This document shows positions 3,265-11,038 of a DNA stretch of 64,000 nt, piece by piece. The stretch's first letter is position 1, and every line of letters begins with the position of its first letter. The DNA lies in NCBI RefSeq assembly GCF_027947535.2, contig NZ_JAAGKO020000016.1, positions 62,001-126,000 on the forward strand. Reading direction: 5' to 3'. The position numbers and the translations under genes were made by a program. This stretch comes from Streptantibioticus silvisoli. GTDB taxonomy: Bacteria > Actinomycetota > Actinomycetes > Streptomycetales > Streptomycetaceae. The notes under the pieces were generated by a model, which was given only the letters and a program-made list of their open reading frames with translations, had not been told where the DNA came from and did no database searches.

Positions 3265-3621
3265 GGTGCGTGGTCCCTCCACCGGCAGGAACGTGCCGGA
3301 CGATCCGAGTAAAGGCCCACCCCGGGCACACCCCGCGCCGCCTGAGCGTCGCGATCCGCACCCCGGTGAGGTTTCTGGTTCGGTCCACCGAAGTGAACTT
3401 TCCGTGACGCTACCCCCCACGCCTCCGCTTGTCAGCATGCGGTAGGGCACAGATTTGCATCTCAGACGCCCGGAGGACCGCTCCGCGGGGGTGCGTGGGG
3501 CGTCCGGCGGTTTGGCCCGCCCGGCGGCCCGGCGGCACTCGGGAAACCCGCCGGTGGCGCGCGCCGACGCTTGGTACCCTTCGGAAGGCCCACGACCGCG
3601 TCCCACCCCGGTCCGGGCCAC
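3265..3621. other. msiK upstream region
   Basis: This 357-bp stretch holds the msiK ribosome binding site (GGAGGG, 3277-3282 region) and presumably the msiK promoter, followed by GC-rich DNA running into the tRNA gene. A loosely dre-like word lies at 3374-3389 but matches only about 10 of 16 consensus bases, so I do not call it. No gene is seen. Confidence 0.5.
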
Positions 3622-3695
3622 GCCTCCTTAGCTCAGCTGGCCAGAGCACCGCTCTTGTAAAGCGGGGGTCGTCGGTTCGAACCCGACAGGGGGCT
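3622..3695 (+). tRNA. tRNA-Thr (anticodon UGU)
   Basis: The 74-nt cloverleaf can be folded by eye. The acceptor GCCTCCT (3622-3628) pairs with AGGGGGC (3688-3694) with one G-U pair. The D stem is GCTC/GAGC and the anticodon stem is CCGCT/AGCGG around the loop CTTGTAA, giving anticodon TGT. The T arm carries GGTTCGAAC. CCA is not encoded, as is usual in streptomycetes. The 3' part of the gene is the left copy of a 21-bp direct repeat whose other copy lies at 5358-5378, which marks the gene as an integration site. Confidence 0.95.
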
Positions 3696-3697
3696 CT
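3677..3697 (+). repeat. Left attachment repeat (att) in the tRNA-Thr 3' end
   Basis: These 21 bases, from the T-loop to just past the acceptor stem, are repeated exactly at 5358-5378. Site-specific integration by an actinomycete tyrosine integrase into a tRNA 3' end leaves exactly this arrangement: an intact tRNA on the integrase side and a partial copy at the far end. Confidence 0.8.
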
Positions 3698-3713
3698 GTG
3701 TGTGACCAGCACC

Positions 3714-3746
3714 AATGCCCCCACGATCATGGATCGTGGGGGCATT
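3714..3746. terminator. Bidirectional hairpin between tRNA-Thr and integrase relic
   Basis: A perfect 15-bp inverted repeat (3714-3728 with 3732-3746) has a 3-nt loop. It lies between the convergent tRNA and integrase 3' ends and can stop transcription from both sides. It probably arrived with the element. Confidence 0.8.
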
Positions 3747-3773
3747 GACGGCAGTACTTGACGGCAGCCGCGC

Positions 3774-3929
3774 TTACCGGCGCCGCTTGAGGAGCCGGTC
3801 CATGTGGCTCATCGCCTCCCGGCGGTTGCCGTCGCTGACGTGGGTGTAGATGTTCATGGTCACCGCGATCTGCGAGTGGCCCAGGATCTCCATGACCGTC
3901 CGGGGCGCGACGCCGGCCGCGAAGAGCAG
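3774..3929 (-). pseudogene. Tyrosine integrase, C-terminal remnant
   Basis: Only the last 51 codons survive. They read as the end of a tyrosine recombinase: LLFAAGVAPRTV, then MEILGHSQIAVTMNIYTHV, then a basic tail ending LLKRRR and TAA. The LGH histidine and the NIYTH tyrosine nucleophile of the catalytic box are visible. The upstream arm-binding and core domains and the HxxR box are gone, because the sequence switches at about 3930-3945 to an unrelated plus-strand gene remnant. The orientation, pointing toward the tRNA att copy, is that of a resident integrase. It cannot make an active enzyme. Confidence 0.85.
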
Positions 3930-3940
3930 CGGCGCGTCCG

Positions 3941-4374
3941 GCGCGCGACTGGTCGCAGTTGGACGCGGTGAGGGCTCTACGGGCCCACGCGCCGGCGGAG
4001 CTGCCGTCCGATGAAAGCATGGTGCGGCAGTGGAAGCGCTGGGAGTCCGGCTCTGTGCCTGGCGAGTTCTAGAAGCCGATCATCGCGGCCACCTTCGGCA
4101 CAGTCACTCACGCACTGTTTCCGGAGCCTGGACGCAGGAAGAGCGGTAAGGAGATTCTCGCTGCAAGCGGCATGGAGACGCCCGAAATCGTCAGCCGCCT
4201 GAACAGGTCCGACGTGAACAACGCCACCCTGGACGCCCTCCGCATTACGACCGATCGCCTCTGTTCGGAATACCCGTACATGCCGAGCGGCCAACTGCTT
4301 ATCGAGGGGCGCCAGTGGCTGAGGCGCGTCGTCGAACTCCACTCCAAGAGCCGGGCGGGGAAGCCGTCGGGGAC
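3941..4374 (+). pseudogene. Truncated HTH (XRE-like) regulator with in-frame amber codon
   Basis: A continuous plus-strand frame reads DWSQLDAVRALRAHAP, then MVRQWKRWESG, then GEF, a TAG stop at 4070-4072, and continues in the same frame with KPIIAATFGTVTHALF to WLRRVVELHSKSRAGK. This is the layout of actinomycete XRE-family regulators that have a WKRWE HTH region and a C-terminal helical domain. The N-terminus is missing at the junction with the integrase remnant. The amber codon sits where the family usually has Tyr after GEF. The 3' end runs directly into the first CRISPR repeat. It is dead three ways: truncated, interrupted and fused. Confidence 0.7.
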
Positions 4375-4830
4375 GGGACCACCCCCGCATGCGCGGGGAC
4401 CACCGGGCATGGTGCGTGGCGGGGCTGACGCGAAGGGGACCACCCCCGCATGCGCGGGGACCACTTCCAGGGCGTACAGCGGTGCGTCAAGGAGTCGGGA
4501 CCACCTCCGCATGCGCGGGGACCACACGGCACCAGTGAGGCTTCCGCGGAAAGCACGGGGACCACCCCCGCATGCGCGGGGACCACCTGGCCCCCAGCAT
4601 CGCGGAGGTGGACCGGATGGGACCACCCCCGCATGCGCGGGGACCACAGCGCACAGAGCCGCCTCGGCAACCCGGTCACGGGACCACCCCCGTATGCGCG
4701 GGGACCACCCTGGGCCGACGAGGCACTGGGCTATGTACCCGGGACCACCCCCGTATGCGCGGGGACCACGGCCCGTCCGCCAGGGCGGCGTCCATCACCT
4801 GGGGACCACCCCCGTATGCGCGGGGACCAC
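4375..4830 (-). CRISPR. Orphan type I-E CRISPR array, 8 repeats and 7 spacers
   Basis: Eight 29-bp repeats start at 4375, 4436, 4497, 4558, 4619, 4680, 4741 and 4802. They are separated by seven spacers of exactly 32 bp, a constant 61-bp period. Read on the minus strand, the repeat begins GTGGTCCCCGCGC and ends GGGTGGTCCC, the palindromic type I-E class known in streptomycetes. The repeats fall into two variants: those from 4680 onward carry A instead of G in the loop (minus strand), and the one at 4497 has one further substitution. Length uniformity suggests an array that was once functional. No cas gene lies in the window. Confidence 0.97.
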
Positions 4831-4930
4831 AGGAGCTGACCTGCGACTTCACGGAGTCCGAGCGCGGTTTTTACTCACTTTGCCATTGGGCGACATCGCG
4901 CACATAGGGAACATGTCGCGGGTCTCCCGC
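4831..4930 (-). promoter_or_regulatory. Presumed CRISPR leader
   Basis: By analogy with type I-E arrays, whose repeat starts with GTG and runs away from the leader, the leader should lie right of the last repeat. This stretch is locally AT-richer and, on the minus strand, contains a GCAAAGTGAGTAAAAACC-like run about 30-55 bp from the array. The most degenerate repeat is toward the far end, which supports this polarity. Promoter function is inferred. Confidence 0.5.
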
Positions 4931-5357
4931 GGATTCCCCATGCTTGCTCTGCCTGTTCGCACTCGTCCATCGTCATGGTCACAACACGCTCTGCGTGCTG
5001 GACTCGGGCGAGCATAGTGGCCGAGCGAGAGCGTGAGGGGGGAGACGCCGTCTCCTGTATTCCTGCTGGCTCGCACGCGCAGAAAGCGGTTTACAGGCGA
5101 CACGACGCCCAAGCGCGTCGTGCGGACGGAAGACTTGGTGTCTTCTCCTCCTACCGGTATCCGGCGATGGGACTGGGCTGGCCCTGTCCAACCGCCACCG
5201 TCGGCTCTGCATCCGTCCGTGTGACGGCGATTCCTGACCGGCAACGTCTTCGGACGTTGCGACACGTCGGCGGACCGTAATGTGCATGCTTCTGTCCTAC
5301 TCGGTGGTCCTGGGCTGGCACGGGCGTCCCTTGGGGGAGCTTGTGAAGCGGGGGGCG
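4931..5357. other. Non-coding remainder of the element, with a UUCG hairpin
   Basis: No convincing gene is present; open frames on both strands give unfamiliar Arg-rich strings. A perfect 8-bp stem closed by a TTCG tetraloop lies at 5241-5260 (GCAACGTC, TTCG, GACGTTGC). It is an exceptionally stable RNA hairpin that could be a terminator core or part of a lost RNA. The stretch ends at the right att repeat. Confidence 0.4.
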
Positions 5358-5378
5358 TCGAACCCGACAGGGGGCTCT
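5358..5378 (+). repeat. Right attachment repeat (partial tRNA-Thr copy)
   Basis: An exact 21-bp copy of the tRNA-Thr 3' end (3677-3697). Upstream similarity (AAGCGGGG) extends with a gap, so it is slightly longer than the minimal core. It does not restore a tRNA. Confidence 0.8.
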
Positions 5379-5392
5379 TTGCATACCCAGCG

Positions 5393-5429
5393 GAGAAGCC
5401 CCGGATCGGACGACGGTTCGGGGCTTCTC
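5393..5429 (+). terminator. Hairpin past the right att repeat, probable original tRNA terminator
   Basis: A perfect 11-bp inverted repeat (5393-5403 with 5419-5429) of the sequence GAGAAGCCCCG lies 15 bp after the right att copy. This spacing matches what a tRNA gene would have before integration. It is inferred to be the native terminator, now 1.7 kb from the gene. Confidence 0.65.
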
Positions 5430-5854
5430 GGTGTGTGTGGCTTTCACCGGTGGCATCGACGGCGACGGCTGAGGGGTCCCTCTTGTGCGGACGGGCCATC
5501 GCCACGCCTCCGTCCATCACCATCGGGCACCGGCGCCGCAATCCTGGCCCGCGCCGTTCGCGAGTACGTCACCCACGACTGCCGCTCGTTCGTCCGGGCC
5601 GCCAAATCCGCCGTCCCCGACCAGCCCGCCTCCCCGACGCCCGGCGCAGCTGCCCGCGTGGCGACCGAATCCGTTCGCGGACGGTCGACCGGCCGGCTCC
5701 CGGTGCGGTGCAGACCCGGTGCGCTGCCCCGGCCATGCCGGTCTGGGCGGGGCCTACGCGGCGACGTTGACGACGTTGCGGGAGCGGTGGTTGGCGGACG
5801 GGGAGAGCTCTGTGGCCCAGGCGCGCTCAGCGGCGGTTTGGGCGGGGGGATGAA
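5430..5854. other. Region with only doubtful coding potential
   Basis: A plus-strand frame from GTG 5485 to TGA 5853 would give 122 aa and end one base before the next gene. Its first two thirds are Pro/Arg/Ser-rich shadow-like sequence; only the last 50 residues (RCPGHAGLGGAYAATLTTLR onward) look protein-like. It may be the frameshifted remnant of a small gene. I do not recognise it. Confidence 0.3.
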
Positions 5855-6049
5855 GTGGTCATGGCGGGGTGGCGAACGGTCGGACAGCTGGCCGGAGTGA
5901 GCGTTGCGGCGTCCTGCTGGGTCGCCCTGGTGGATCACTTGCTCTGGCACCAGTCGTGGCGGGGCTCCTGGGCGCACGGGATCGGGACGGGCGCCGTGGG
6001 CTTCGCTGCCGGCCTCCTGGTGGGGTTGGTCCTGCGGTTGAGGCGTTGA
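5855..6049 (+). CDS. Small two-helix membrane protein
   Basis: 64 aa from GTG 5855, or 62 aa from ATG 5861. It has two hydrophobic segments, QLAGVSVAASCWVALVDHLL and GAVGFAAGLLVGLVL, separated by a short Trp/His-rich loop, and ends in RLRR. This is a helical hairpin with a basic cytoplasmic end. It begins directly after a TGA of the upstream frame. I do not recognise the family; the function is unknown. Confidence 0.45.
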   Translation: MVMAGWRTVGQLAGVSVAASCWVALVDHLLWHQSWRGSWAHGIGTGAVGFAAGLLVGLVLRLRR

Positions 6050-6197
6050 CGTCCTCGTCGGGCCCGTACGGGCTGGGCAACGTTTCGTCGCCGGTGGACA
6101 CGCGGGTGAGCGCCGGATGCGCCTCCGGGGGATACTCCCTGCGGGCATCGACGGCCCATGCGGTGCTGGTGGTGCGGCTGTTCATCGGAGGGGTGCC

Positions 6198-6485
6198 ATG
6201 AAGGTGACGGTTCCCGGCTCCGCTGGCCAGGAGCACGCGGCCGCCGCCATCAGCGACTTCGGGCCGGCCTGCGGAGCGGAGTACCCCCTGGGCGTCGAAC
6301 CGAGAGGCGTCGAACCGAGAGGCGTCGAACCGATGGGCGTCGAACCGATGGGCGTCGAACCGATCGCGTTCGCCCGGCAGCGGTGGCGGGTCGCCGACGC
6401 GTTCCGGCTCGTCGCCCTCACCCGCGGCGGCGTCCACTTCGAACGCGGCCACCTCGTCGAACGCCCCGGGGCGGTCACCGCGTGA
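6198..6485 (+). CDS. Small protein with GVEPx pentapeptide repeats and RGHLVE tail
   Basis: 95 aa from the ATG at 6198, chosen for the GGAGGGG ribosome binding site 4 bases upstream. The middle holds five perfect-length pentapeptide repeats (GVEPR twice, GVEPM twice, GVEPI) encoded by 15-bp direct repeats. The C-terminal half reads RLVALTRGGVHFERGHLVE and ends in TA. The stop codon overlaps the GTG of the next gene (GTGA). That next gene encodes a 27-aa protein aligning with this C-terminus, so a segment has been duplicated in tandem. I do not recognise the family. Confidence 0.6.
   Translation: MKVTVPGSAGQEHAAAAISDFGPACGAEYPLGVEPRGVEPRGVEPMGVEPMGVEPIAFARQRWRVADAFRLVALTRGGVHFERGHLVERPGAVTA
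6291..6365 (+). repeat. Five tandem 15-bp repeats (GGCGTCGAACCGAnn)
   Basis: Five consecutive copies with changes only in the last two bases. They are in frame inside the small gene and give the GVEPx pentapeptide. Near identity points to recent slippage expansion. Confidence 0.9.
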
Positions 6486-10570: not shown

Positions 10571-11038
10571 TCACTCCCGGGGTGGTGACGGTTCCGGGAT
10601 CGGTGGGATGGCGTAGGTGAGTGTCGCGCTGGCGACCAGCACGTCGTCCGCGTCGAGGAGTTCCGCCAGGACCACGCAGAGGCGGCGGCCGAACTTGGCT
10701 GTTCTGGCCCGGACTTGGAGGTCGCCGGGCCTGGGGCGGTTGAGGAAGTTGATCTGGAGCGAGCTGGTCAGCGCCATCAGGGTGGGGCCGAGGCGGGCGT
10801 TGATCAGCAGGAAGGCGGCGAGGTCGACCAGGCCGGCCTGTTCGGGGCCGGAGATCGTGCCGCCCGGGCGGGTGCGCAGGCGGTTGCCGTCCACCGCCAT
10901 CGTCAGCGTCCGCCGGTCCACCTCGACCACGCGGCAGGCCGGGTAGTCGGGGAACTGGCCGTCGATCAACTCGTTGAGCCGCTCCGGGCCCATCACGACG
11001 TCGACGGTGCCGACCGCCGTACCGGACTCAGTGGACAT
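10571..11038 (-). CDS. PaaI-like hotdog-fold thioesterase
   Basis: 155 aa. It would hydrolyse an acyl-CoA or acyl-ACP thioester. The hotdog core is visible as RTRPGGTISGPEQAGLVDLA, an active-site-type helix, followed by LTSSLQINFLNRPRPGDLQ and the edge strands RRLCVVLAELLDADDVLVA, the PaaI/DUF4442 pattern. I chose the ATG at 11038, which opens MSTESGTAV; longer forms are not supported. It diverges from the lipid gene cluster starting at 11724 and may belong to it as a releasing enzyme, or may be independent. Confidence 0.8.
   Translation of the reverse strand: MSTESGTAVGTVDVVMGPERLNELIDGQFPDYPACRVVEVDRRTLTMAVDGNRLRTRPGGTISGPEQAGLVDLAAFLLINARLGPTLMALTSSLQINFLNRPRPGDLQVRARTAKFGRRLCVVLAELLDADDVLVASATLTYAIPPIPEPSPPRE

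Follow-up and report, generated by a model that had tools for sequence, protein, structure and literature searches.

The type I-E CRISPR system of Streptomyces avermitilis is reported to be active against plasmids and to some extent against phage, with AAG as the PAM (PMC4762764). As described in the same source, it has 29-bp repeats, eight I-E cas genes and two arrays, and in its repeats and cas genes it resembles the system analysed here. The pSAM2-type AICEs, as described in PMC3218068, share with our locus attachment (att) repeats made from the 3' end of a tRNA gene, and they also have a tyrosine integrase, of which our locus has a remnant, RepSA and regulators of the GntR/XRE type; in the text of this source, CRISPR (cas components) is mentioned only for the T4SS-type Frankia ICE Fcci3350 and in the reference list, not for an AICE. 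Several cas-less arrays on mobile elements have been described. The virus-borne mini-CRISPR arrays, for which the use of host Cas proteins is shown or thought, contain only one or two spacers, most of which are directed at related viruses, and their repeats are identical to those of the host (PMC6858448, PMC11656645). For orphan arrays on plasmids, which are mobile replicons, the use of host Cas proteins in trans has been suggested (PMC9071438), and plasmid SCP1 of S. coelicolor is reported to have an array of four spacers and no cas gene (PMC12231136). A CRISPR system has also been found on an integrative conjugative element of Campylobacter; by the title of the report it is a Cas9 system that targets competing plasmids (PMC8743540). 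Among the literature matches listed, from open-licence papers, an array carried by an AICE was not found.

The array described here lies in a window of 64,000 nucleotides (the whole stretch of DNA that was analysed), which belongs to contig C39. The draft genome has a size of 8.7 Mb in 130 contigs and, judging from the nearest named relatives, its family is most likely Streptomycetaceae. We consider it likely that this array is phage-immunity cargo of a pSAM2-type AICE, located between a regulator of the NsdA family and the right attachment site, and that it uses the Cas proteins of the host in trans. This reading is based on the anatomy of the locus, the second copy at another tRNA gene, the homologous case of Streptomyces sp. 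CNQ085, the complete host cas gene set, the phage-terminase spacer and a repeat pattern that fits growth at the leader end.

Anatomy of the array and of the element remnant

The following features are found in the window.

3622-3696, plus strand: tRNA-Thr(TGT) gene, of which the 3' half (3653-3696) is the attachment core
3774-3938 (about), minus strand: C-terminal remnant of a tyrosine integrase, beside tRNA-Thr
3939-4352 (about), plus strand: partial NsdA-family TPR regulator gene that lacks both its ends and has an in-frame stop
4353-4374, minus strand: 22-nt stub of a further (eighth) spacer at the regulator/array deletion joint, from comparison with L013 (the C103 locus, see below)
4375-4830, minus strand: type I-E CRISPR array of eight repeats and seven spacers, with an exact 61-bp period
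4404-4435, 4465-4496, 4526-4557, 4587-4618, 4648-4679, 4709-4740 and 4770-4801, minus strand: spacers W7 to W1, in this order
4648-4679, minus strand: spacer W3, matching the terminase large subunit genes of two phage sequences
4831-4886, minus strand: conserved leader core, repeat - N7 - GACC - N27 - TTTTACTCACTT, which is the family-wide junction pattern
4887-5357, no strand assigned: right arm of the element, from leader to attachment site, common to the element on contig C103
5358-5378, plus strand: right attachment copy, 21 bp of the 3' end of tRNA-Thr, with a decayed upstream part

The original prediction of eight 29-bp repeats and seven 32-bp spacers is confirmed by the window sequence, as the eight copies of 29 bp at this period leave room for seven spacers of exactly that length. 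On the minus strand the repeat has the I-E form, and therefore the minus strand is the CRISPR sense and the leader is expected at the higher coordinates, where it is indeed found, on the right of the array. When folded, the repeat forms a hairpin of the I-E type with a 7-bp stem and a tetraloop, with a fold energy that is not unusual (z -0.63; 46 of 200 shuffled sequences fold equally well). Stem arms CCCCGC / GCGGGG, or near to these, are common to the three folded repeats (those of the window, of CNQ085 and of the array beside cas3 on contig C52), and the loops differ among the three. The leader core of the window has no mismatch to the family-wide junction pattern. This is a real type I-E array with a conserved leader: repeats of 29 nt, which form a stem of about 7 bp, alternate with 32-nt spacers, the leader at one end is common to other I-E arrays of the family and a full I-E cas gene set is present in the same genome.

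The truncated regulator (about 3939-4352), the spacer stub (4353-4374) and the leader (from 4831) had not been mentioned in the original prediction. From the 22-nt stub it appears that the array was once longer and that the present joint arose by a deletion running from within the regulator gene to within a spacer. One substitution is common to the three leader-proximal repeats (at 4680, 4741 and 4802) and absent from the repeats on C103, which fits a separation of the two copies followed by the addition of spacers next to the leader.

The array does lie between tRNA-Thr repeats, as had been proposed: the 21-bp copy is 1,681 bp from its partner, and the sequence before it continues the tRNA half in decayed form. 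The 3' half of tRNA-Thr(TGT) is an integration hot spot in the family. This half (3653-3696) recurs in many family genomes as copies of 43-44 bp some kilobases away, corresponding to positions 94-137 of the query (window 3560-3760). The integrase remnant that had been noticed is also real, with 46% identity over 43 residues (window 3801-3929; E 3e-6) to an integrase beside tRNA-Ile in locus L083. The regulator fragment is 98.3% identical over 414 bp to an intact gene on contig C103 (L013 8583-9830), the product of which has 415 residues and belongs to the TPR regulators of the NsdA family. As a separate observation, copies of a 15-bp repeat at 6289-6378 of the window lie within a small reading frame and encode five GVEP motifs in a row.

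As in AICEs, direct repeats of a tRNA 3' half bound the element, of which in the window only 21 bp are exact. Of the tyrosine integrase that AICEs have beside the attachment site, the window has a C-terminal remnant only, and none was found on C103. No match to RepSA or DUF2637 is found in the window or in L013, and for want of RepSA the element is therefore called the remnant of an AICE and not an AICE. The AICE membership of the two remnants of this genome rests accordingly on the regulator, the attachment repeats and the one integrase remnant. A CRISPR-associated transposon was also considered, and was set aside on the tRNA attachment repeats and the tyrosine integrase remnant, which point elsewhere.

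Related elements and the slot beside the attachment site

A genome search with the array repeat shows that it is also present on contig C103. Here tRNA-Arg(CCT) (L013 8000-8075) on one side and 45 bp copied from its 3' half (10583-10627) on the other enclose a segment of 2.5 kb, which contains the intact regulator of 415 residues, three repeats with two spacers, the outer repeat being degenerate, and the same leader. Leader and right arm of the two copies are 95% identical over 509 bp (of a 521-bp query, window 4825-5345), and no spacer is common to the two arrays. No integrase match was obtained in the C103 element, nor a match to RepSA or DUF2637. The DNA of the right end is common up to the attachment site while the tRNA gene is a different one, and therefore the array is part of the element, not of the chromosomal place where it is integrated. 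Exchange between the window and C103 copies within the one genome is conceivable.

The tRNA-Thr stretch has a match in 146 of the 150 genomes searched, and the 30 best places, including that of this genome, were examined over at most about 1.5 kb on either side. An array with a leader is seen at the window's own place only; L242 has a single repeat-like match and no leader. An array at the tRNA-Thr site without attachment repeats or integrase, which according to the original prediction would show that the array predates integration, is not seen in this small sample.

Relatives of the regulator were sought in named genomes, and the best 80 of 269 loci were kept. Carriage of an array by these elements is rare, being seen beside the regulator at one of the 80 best loci, that of Streptomyces sp. 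CNQ085 (L053); in L103 there is a single weak repeat-like match at about 9.4 kb from the regulator. In L053 the regulator ends at 5276 and is followed by 15 repeats (5292-6175), the leader and a tRNA-Ser 3' half. Genes for GntR and DUF2637 lie upstream, and the left end of the element is beyond the contig, so that only the right tRNA half is present on it. In the genome of CNQ085 three matches to I-E cas1 score over the cut-off. The right arm of the window has no match in the 80 relatives, apart from matches in L053 around the repeats and the start of the leader. The order regulator, array, leader and attachment site is thus found at two tRNA genes of this genome and in CNQ085, which supports carriage of the array by an integrative element, one of the two possibilities named in the original prediction.

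In the stretches examined around the 80 regulator loci (E 1e-10), an integrase match (to one of five queries) is present in 38 and absent in 42, a RepSA match is present in 18, and both together in 17; the GntR query matches in 62 and the DUF2637 query in 22, and the Cas queries match in none. The RepSA query corresponds to PF20199 (pSAM2 RepSA) with 510 bits, and two of the integrase queries pass PF00589 with a third just short of it. ARAGORN, run on 60 of the 80 loci, finds tRNA genes in 17, and a repeat of the tRNA 3' half was sought in 15 of these (L041 and L043 were left out). A copy to the right of the regulator is found in 12 of the 15 (L032, L040, L076, L079, L080, L082, L083, L084, L085, L087, L089 and L092), with a length of only 20-21 bp in L032 and L087; L052 and L088 have no such copy, and the two downstream tRNA genes of L053 gave no real second copy. 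From integrase, RepSA and the tRNA-half repeats we infer that the regulator-bearing elements are pSAM2-type AICEs. As the related elements carry an integrase and a pSAM2-type RepSA, the array-bearing elements would be remnants of AICEs.

The reading frames between regulator and right attachment site were listed in 12 array-free elements, and nine frames from five of these were scanned. Genes in this slot have PADLOC matches in two of the five elements (L092 and L076), and the presence of such defence-like genes in array-free elements suggests that the array occupies what seems to be a cargo slot between the regulator and the right attachment site. The individual contents are, in L092 (11103-14240), GmrSD_N (NsnA in PADLOC), a DNA methyltransferase and a HEPN protein, in L076 (11269-12162) a NucC/PD-DExK-like protein and in L060 (11283-12122) DUF4231; the slot of L032 has a TPR protein and that of L085 a HAD match under the cut-off. 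In seven cases, including some outside these elements, the leader end lies about 500-560 bp from the tRNA core:

window 4830-5358
L013 10073-10583
L053 6175-6736
G081 C2 4331076-4331605
G031 C13 410977-411517
G031 C13 433457-433959
G058 C32 43377-43879

Within this spacing, alignment shows that only the leader core is common across lineages. In G161 the distance is 1,146 bp, off this pattern, and in some island arrays it is the opposite end that faces the attachment copy.

Host Cas proteins, spacer targets and alternative readings

The full set of eight I-E proteins (Cas3, Cse1, Cse2, Cas7, Cas5, Cas6, Cas1 and Cas2) is encoded elsewhere in this genome, on contig C52, each scoring over its curated NCBIfam cut-off, Cas3 over those of the core and HD domains; the genome has one match to a Cas1 of the I-E type. 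A search of the 64-kb window with these eight proteins gives no match at E 0.001 or better, in agreement with the earlier remark that no cas gene is in view. The term orphan, used in the original prediction, is correct for the locus and not for the genome, which has a complete I-E cas set and more arrays on C52; 'away from cas genes' is the better description. On C52 there is a long array beside cas3 together with smaller arrays, and C13 has a two-repeat array. The repeats beside cas3 differ from the window repeat by at least four of 29 bases, except for the one at the far end (three), those of the C52 satellite arrays by at least two and those of C13 by three. An identity of the repeat with that of the cas-adjacent array of the host, as is typical for mini-arrays of mobile elements, is therefore not observed. 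Within the long array beside cas3 (L012 15801-19973) the last repeat base varies, and the repeat end shifts from TGGTCC to TGTCCC towards cas3.

The array would be transcribed leftwards from its own leader and the transcript would be cut by the Cas6e of the host. The resulting crRNAs would be loaded into the host Cascade and the target would be cleaved by Cas3, all of these being encoded on C52, and the host Cas1-Cas2 would add new spacers at the leader end. Since both elements of this genome are remnants, any present role of the array would be that of a host satellite array.

Spacer W3 matches the terminase large subunit gene of IMG/VR contig L233 at 27 of 32 positions, the first 21 nt being exact, with AAC as the upstream flank, and the terminase gene of phage phiSASD1 at 26 of 32, with the flank TAA. 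Both targets are in the same codon register and encode SAQSRLGNPV, or I at the last residue; by PHROGs the target gene in L233 is a terminase gene, and its neighbour encodes a portal protein. In a control with 1000 shuffled spacers none matched at six or fewer mismatches, a figure that holds for two sequences preselected by search and is not the chance for the whole collection. Spacer N12 of CNQ085 matches the terminase gene of Streptomyces phage Chymera at 28 of 32 positions (flank TAC). The three protospacer flanks AAC, TAA and TAC come from three sites, none of them with the AAG reported as the PAM of S. avermitilis and none a perfect match. Spacer N14 possibly matches minor tail genes of mycobacteriophages (27 of 32).

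For W1, W2, W4-W7 and spacer C1 of the C103 array no exact 20-nt match is found in viral contigs, and six of the seven window spacers have no accepted target. No match at three or fewer mismatches is obtained for W1, W2 and W3 in 169 other genomes (170 with the own one), or for spacer C1 besides its own array in 267 genomes, the own one included; these four spacers match only their own array and therefore do not target their own genome at this level. The match of W1 to phage Magritte (26 of 32) is weak and was set aside, as there is no second phage, and the matches to Hippo/Werner and to an unnamed phage record are weak and run into repeat sequence. The match of CNQ085 to Hiyaa was also rejected, as it runs from the repeat into spacer N6, where 19 of the 32 spacer positions agree. 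The two C103 spacers have only partial matches to phages (best 20 of 43 records), as has N12 to plasmids. When the whole array is searched against plasmids, matches of the repeat dominate and there is no usable spacer target in the best 40 of 460 records, which leaves room for plasmid targets. Repeats of this kind also occur in phages: Streptomyces phage Eklok (MT521991, L111 2402-2704) has six I-E-like repeat copies, 49-61 bp apart, in an unannotated gap, which from their sequence are a candidate phage mini-array or a candidate CRISPR inhibitor of the repeat type, and 16 records of Streptomyces sanglieri phages, several of them GenBank/RefSeq doubles, match the array repeat.

It is possible, though we doubt it, that the array came with the AICE and is a relic, no longer expressed or used and persisting on a dead remnant. 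The loss of most element genes, the broken regulator and integrase, the deletion that cut into the old end of the array and the six spacers without an accepted target would all agree with this, whereas the flawless leader core, the near-identical repeats with an intact stem and the complete cas set in the genome argue against it.

The leader was surveyed with the junction pattern, allowing three mismatches, which is found at 100 places in 46 of 394 family genomes and never in the reversed control; the three places in this genome are the window, C103 and a third one on C52. For the 97 junctions outside this genome, stretches of up to about 9.5 kb on either side (less at contig ends) were searched, and a Cas query matches near 33 of them and near none of the other 64. 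I-E arrays are dispersed in these genomes, and such cas-free arrays, like the further arrays of this genome on C52 and C13, would be compatible with a satellite array of the host that landed inside the AICE by recombination or by off-target integration. This reading is rather unlikely, as elements at three tRNA genes (Thr, Arg and Ser) all have the array in one position, flanked by the regulator and the attachment site, and the repeat of the two element arrays is at least two bases off the repeats of the C52 and C13 arrays. Carriage by such elements is rare in this survey as well: only the two own-genome element junctions of the 100 adjoin a regulator homologue of at least 80% identity (matches of 25-28%, in L173 and L199, were not counted).

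In a genus of the same family (g7), I-E loci (matches to cas3, cse1, cas5, cas6 and cas1, with arrays) lie as islands between 3'-half copies of tRNA-Ser(tga) or tRNA-Tyr, and contain a gene like the L040 integrase:

G084 C1 3981311-4008724 (L169, L273), about 27 kb
G099 C1 4662100-4693282 (L270, L174, L175), about 31 kb
G031 C13 410890-445760 (L148, L275, L149), about 35 kb
G058 C32 43333-74416 (L154-L156), about 31 kb
G129 C77 23671-31782 (L183), 8 kb, decayed, with broken cas genes

The G031 island has a third tRNA-half copy inside, with the cas genes in its right-hand part, and the tRNA genes called intact by ARAGORN at the left end of G084 and the right end of G058 are 3'-half copies. These islands of a sister genus suggest a possible route of arrays into AICEs.

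The idea of competition between elements, put forward in the original prediction, is not supported, and an array aimed mainly at rival AICEs or plasmids is very improbable despite the precedent in plasmid-borne systems (reviewed in PMC11656645), because the accepted targets are phage terminase genes and the 23 element-borne spacers have no strong match outside their own array in 3.4 Mb of loci, including the 80 regulator-bearing ones.

Comparison with known systems

Beyond the cargo reading for this locus, we tentatively suggest that a lineage of AICEs carries leader-equipped I-E arrays as immune cargo that can be updated, in which the host Cas1-Cas2 would write phage memories and which conjugation could spread to hosts with I-E Cas proteins. 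As the mobility genes are broken or not found in both remnants of this genome, such horizontal spread would apply to their ancestors. An array that recurs in an AICE slot, equipped with a host-type leader and a spacer against a phage, would make phage memory a mobile cargo and, if this is true, immunity acquired against phages would pass horizontally between hosts with no need for cas genes to travel along. This can be tested in Streptomyces, for which AICE transfer is known and activity of an I-E system is on record (PMC4762764).

The comparison with the described systems is as follows. In S. avermitilis the cas genes have the arrays on their flanks and AAG serves as the PAM, whereas here there is no cas gene, the array is in a tRNA-integrated remnant and the best W3 target has the flank AAC; phiSASD1, whose terminase gene is one of the W3 matches, was also used in the S. 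avermitilis study (PMC4762764). Nearly all mobility genes are lost here when compared with the pSAM2-type AICEs as described in PMC3218068. Unlike the virus-borne mini-arrays, the array has its own type of repeat and, besides the stub, seven spacers; a phage is among its targets, the spacers being directed, as far as targets were accepted, at phage terminase genes and not at related elements. It differs from the orphan plasmid arrays in its carrier, a chromosomally integrated AICE, and in its recurring slot beside the attachment site. The array is of a known kind, namely a mobile-element array that probably borrows the host Cas proteins, and what is new is the AICE as the carrier, the recurring slot, the recurrence at three tRNA genes and the spacer against a phage terminase gene.
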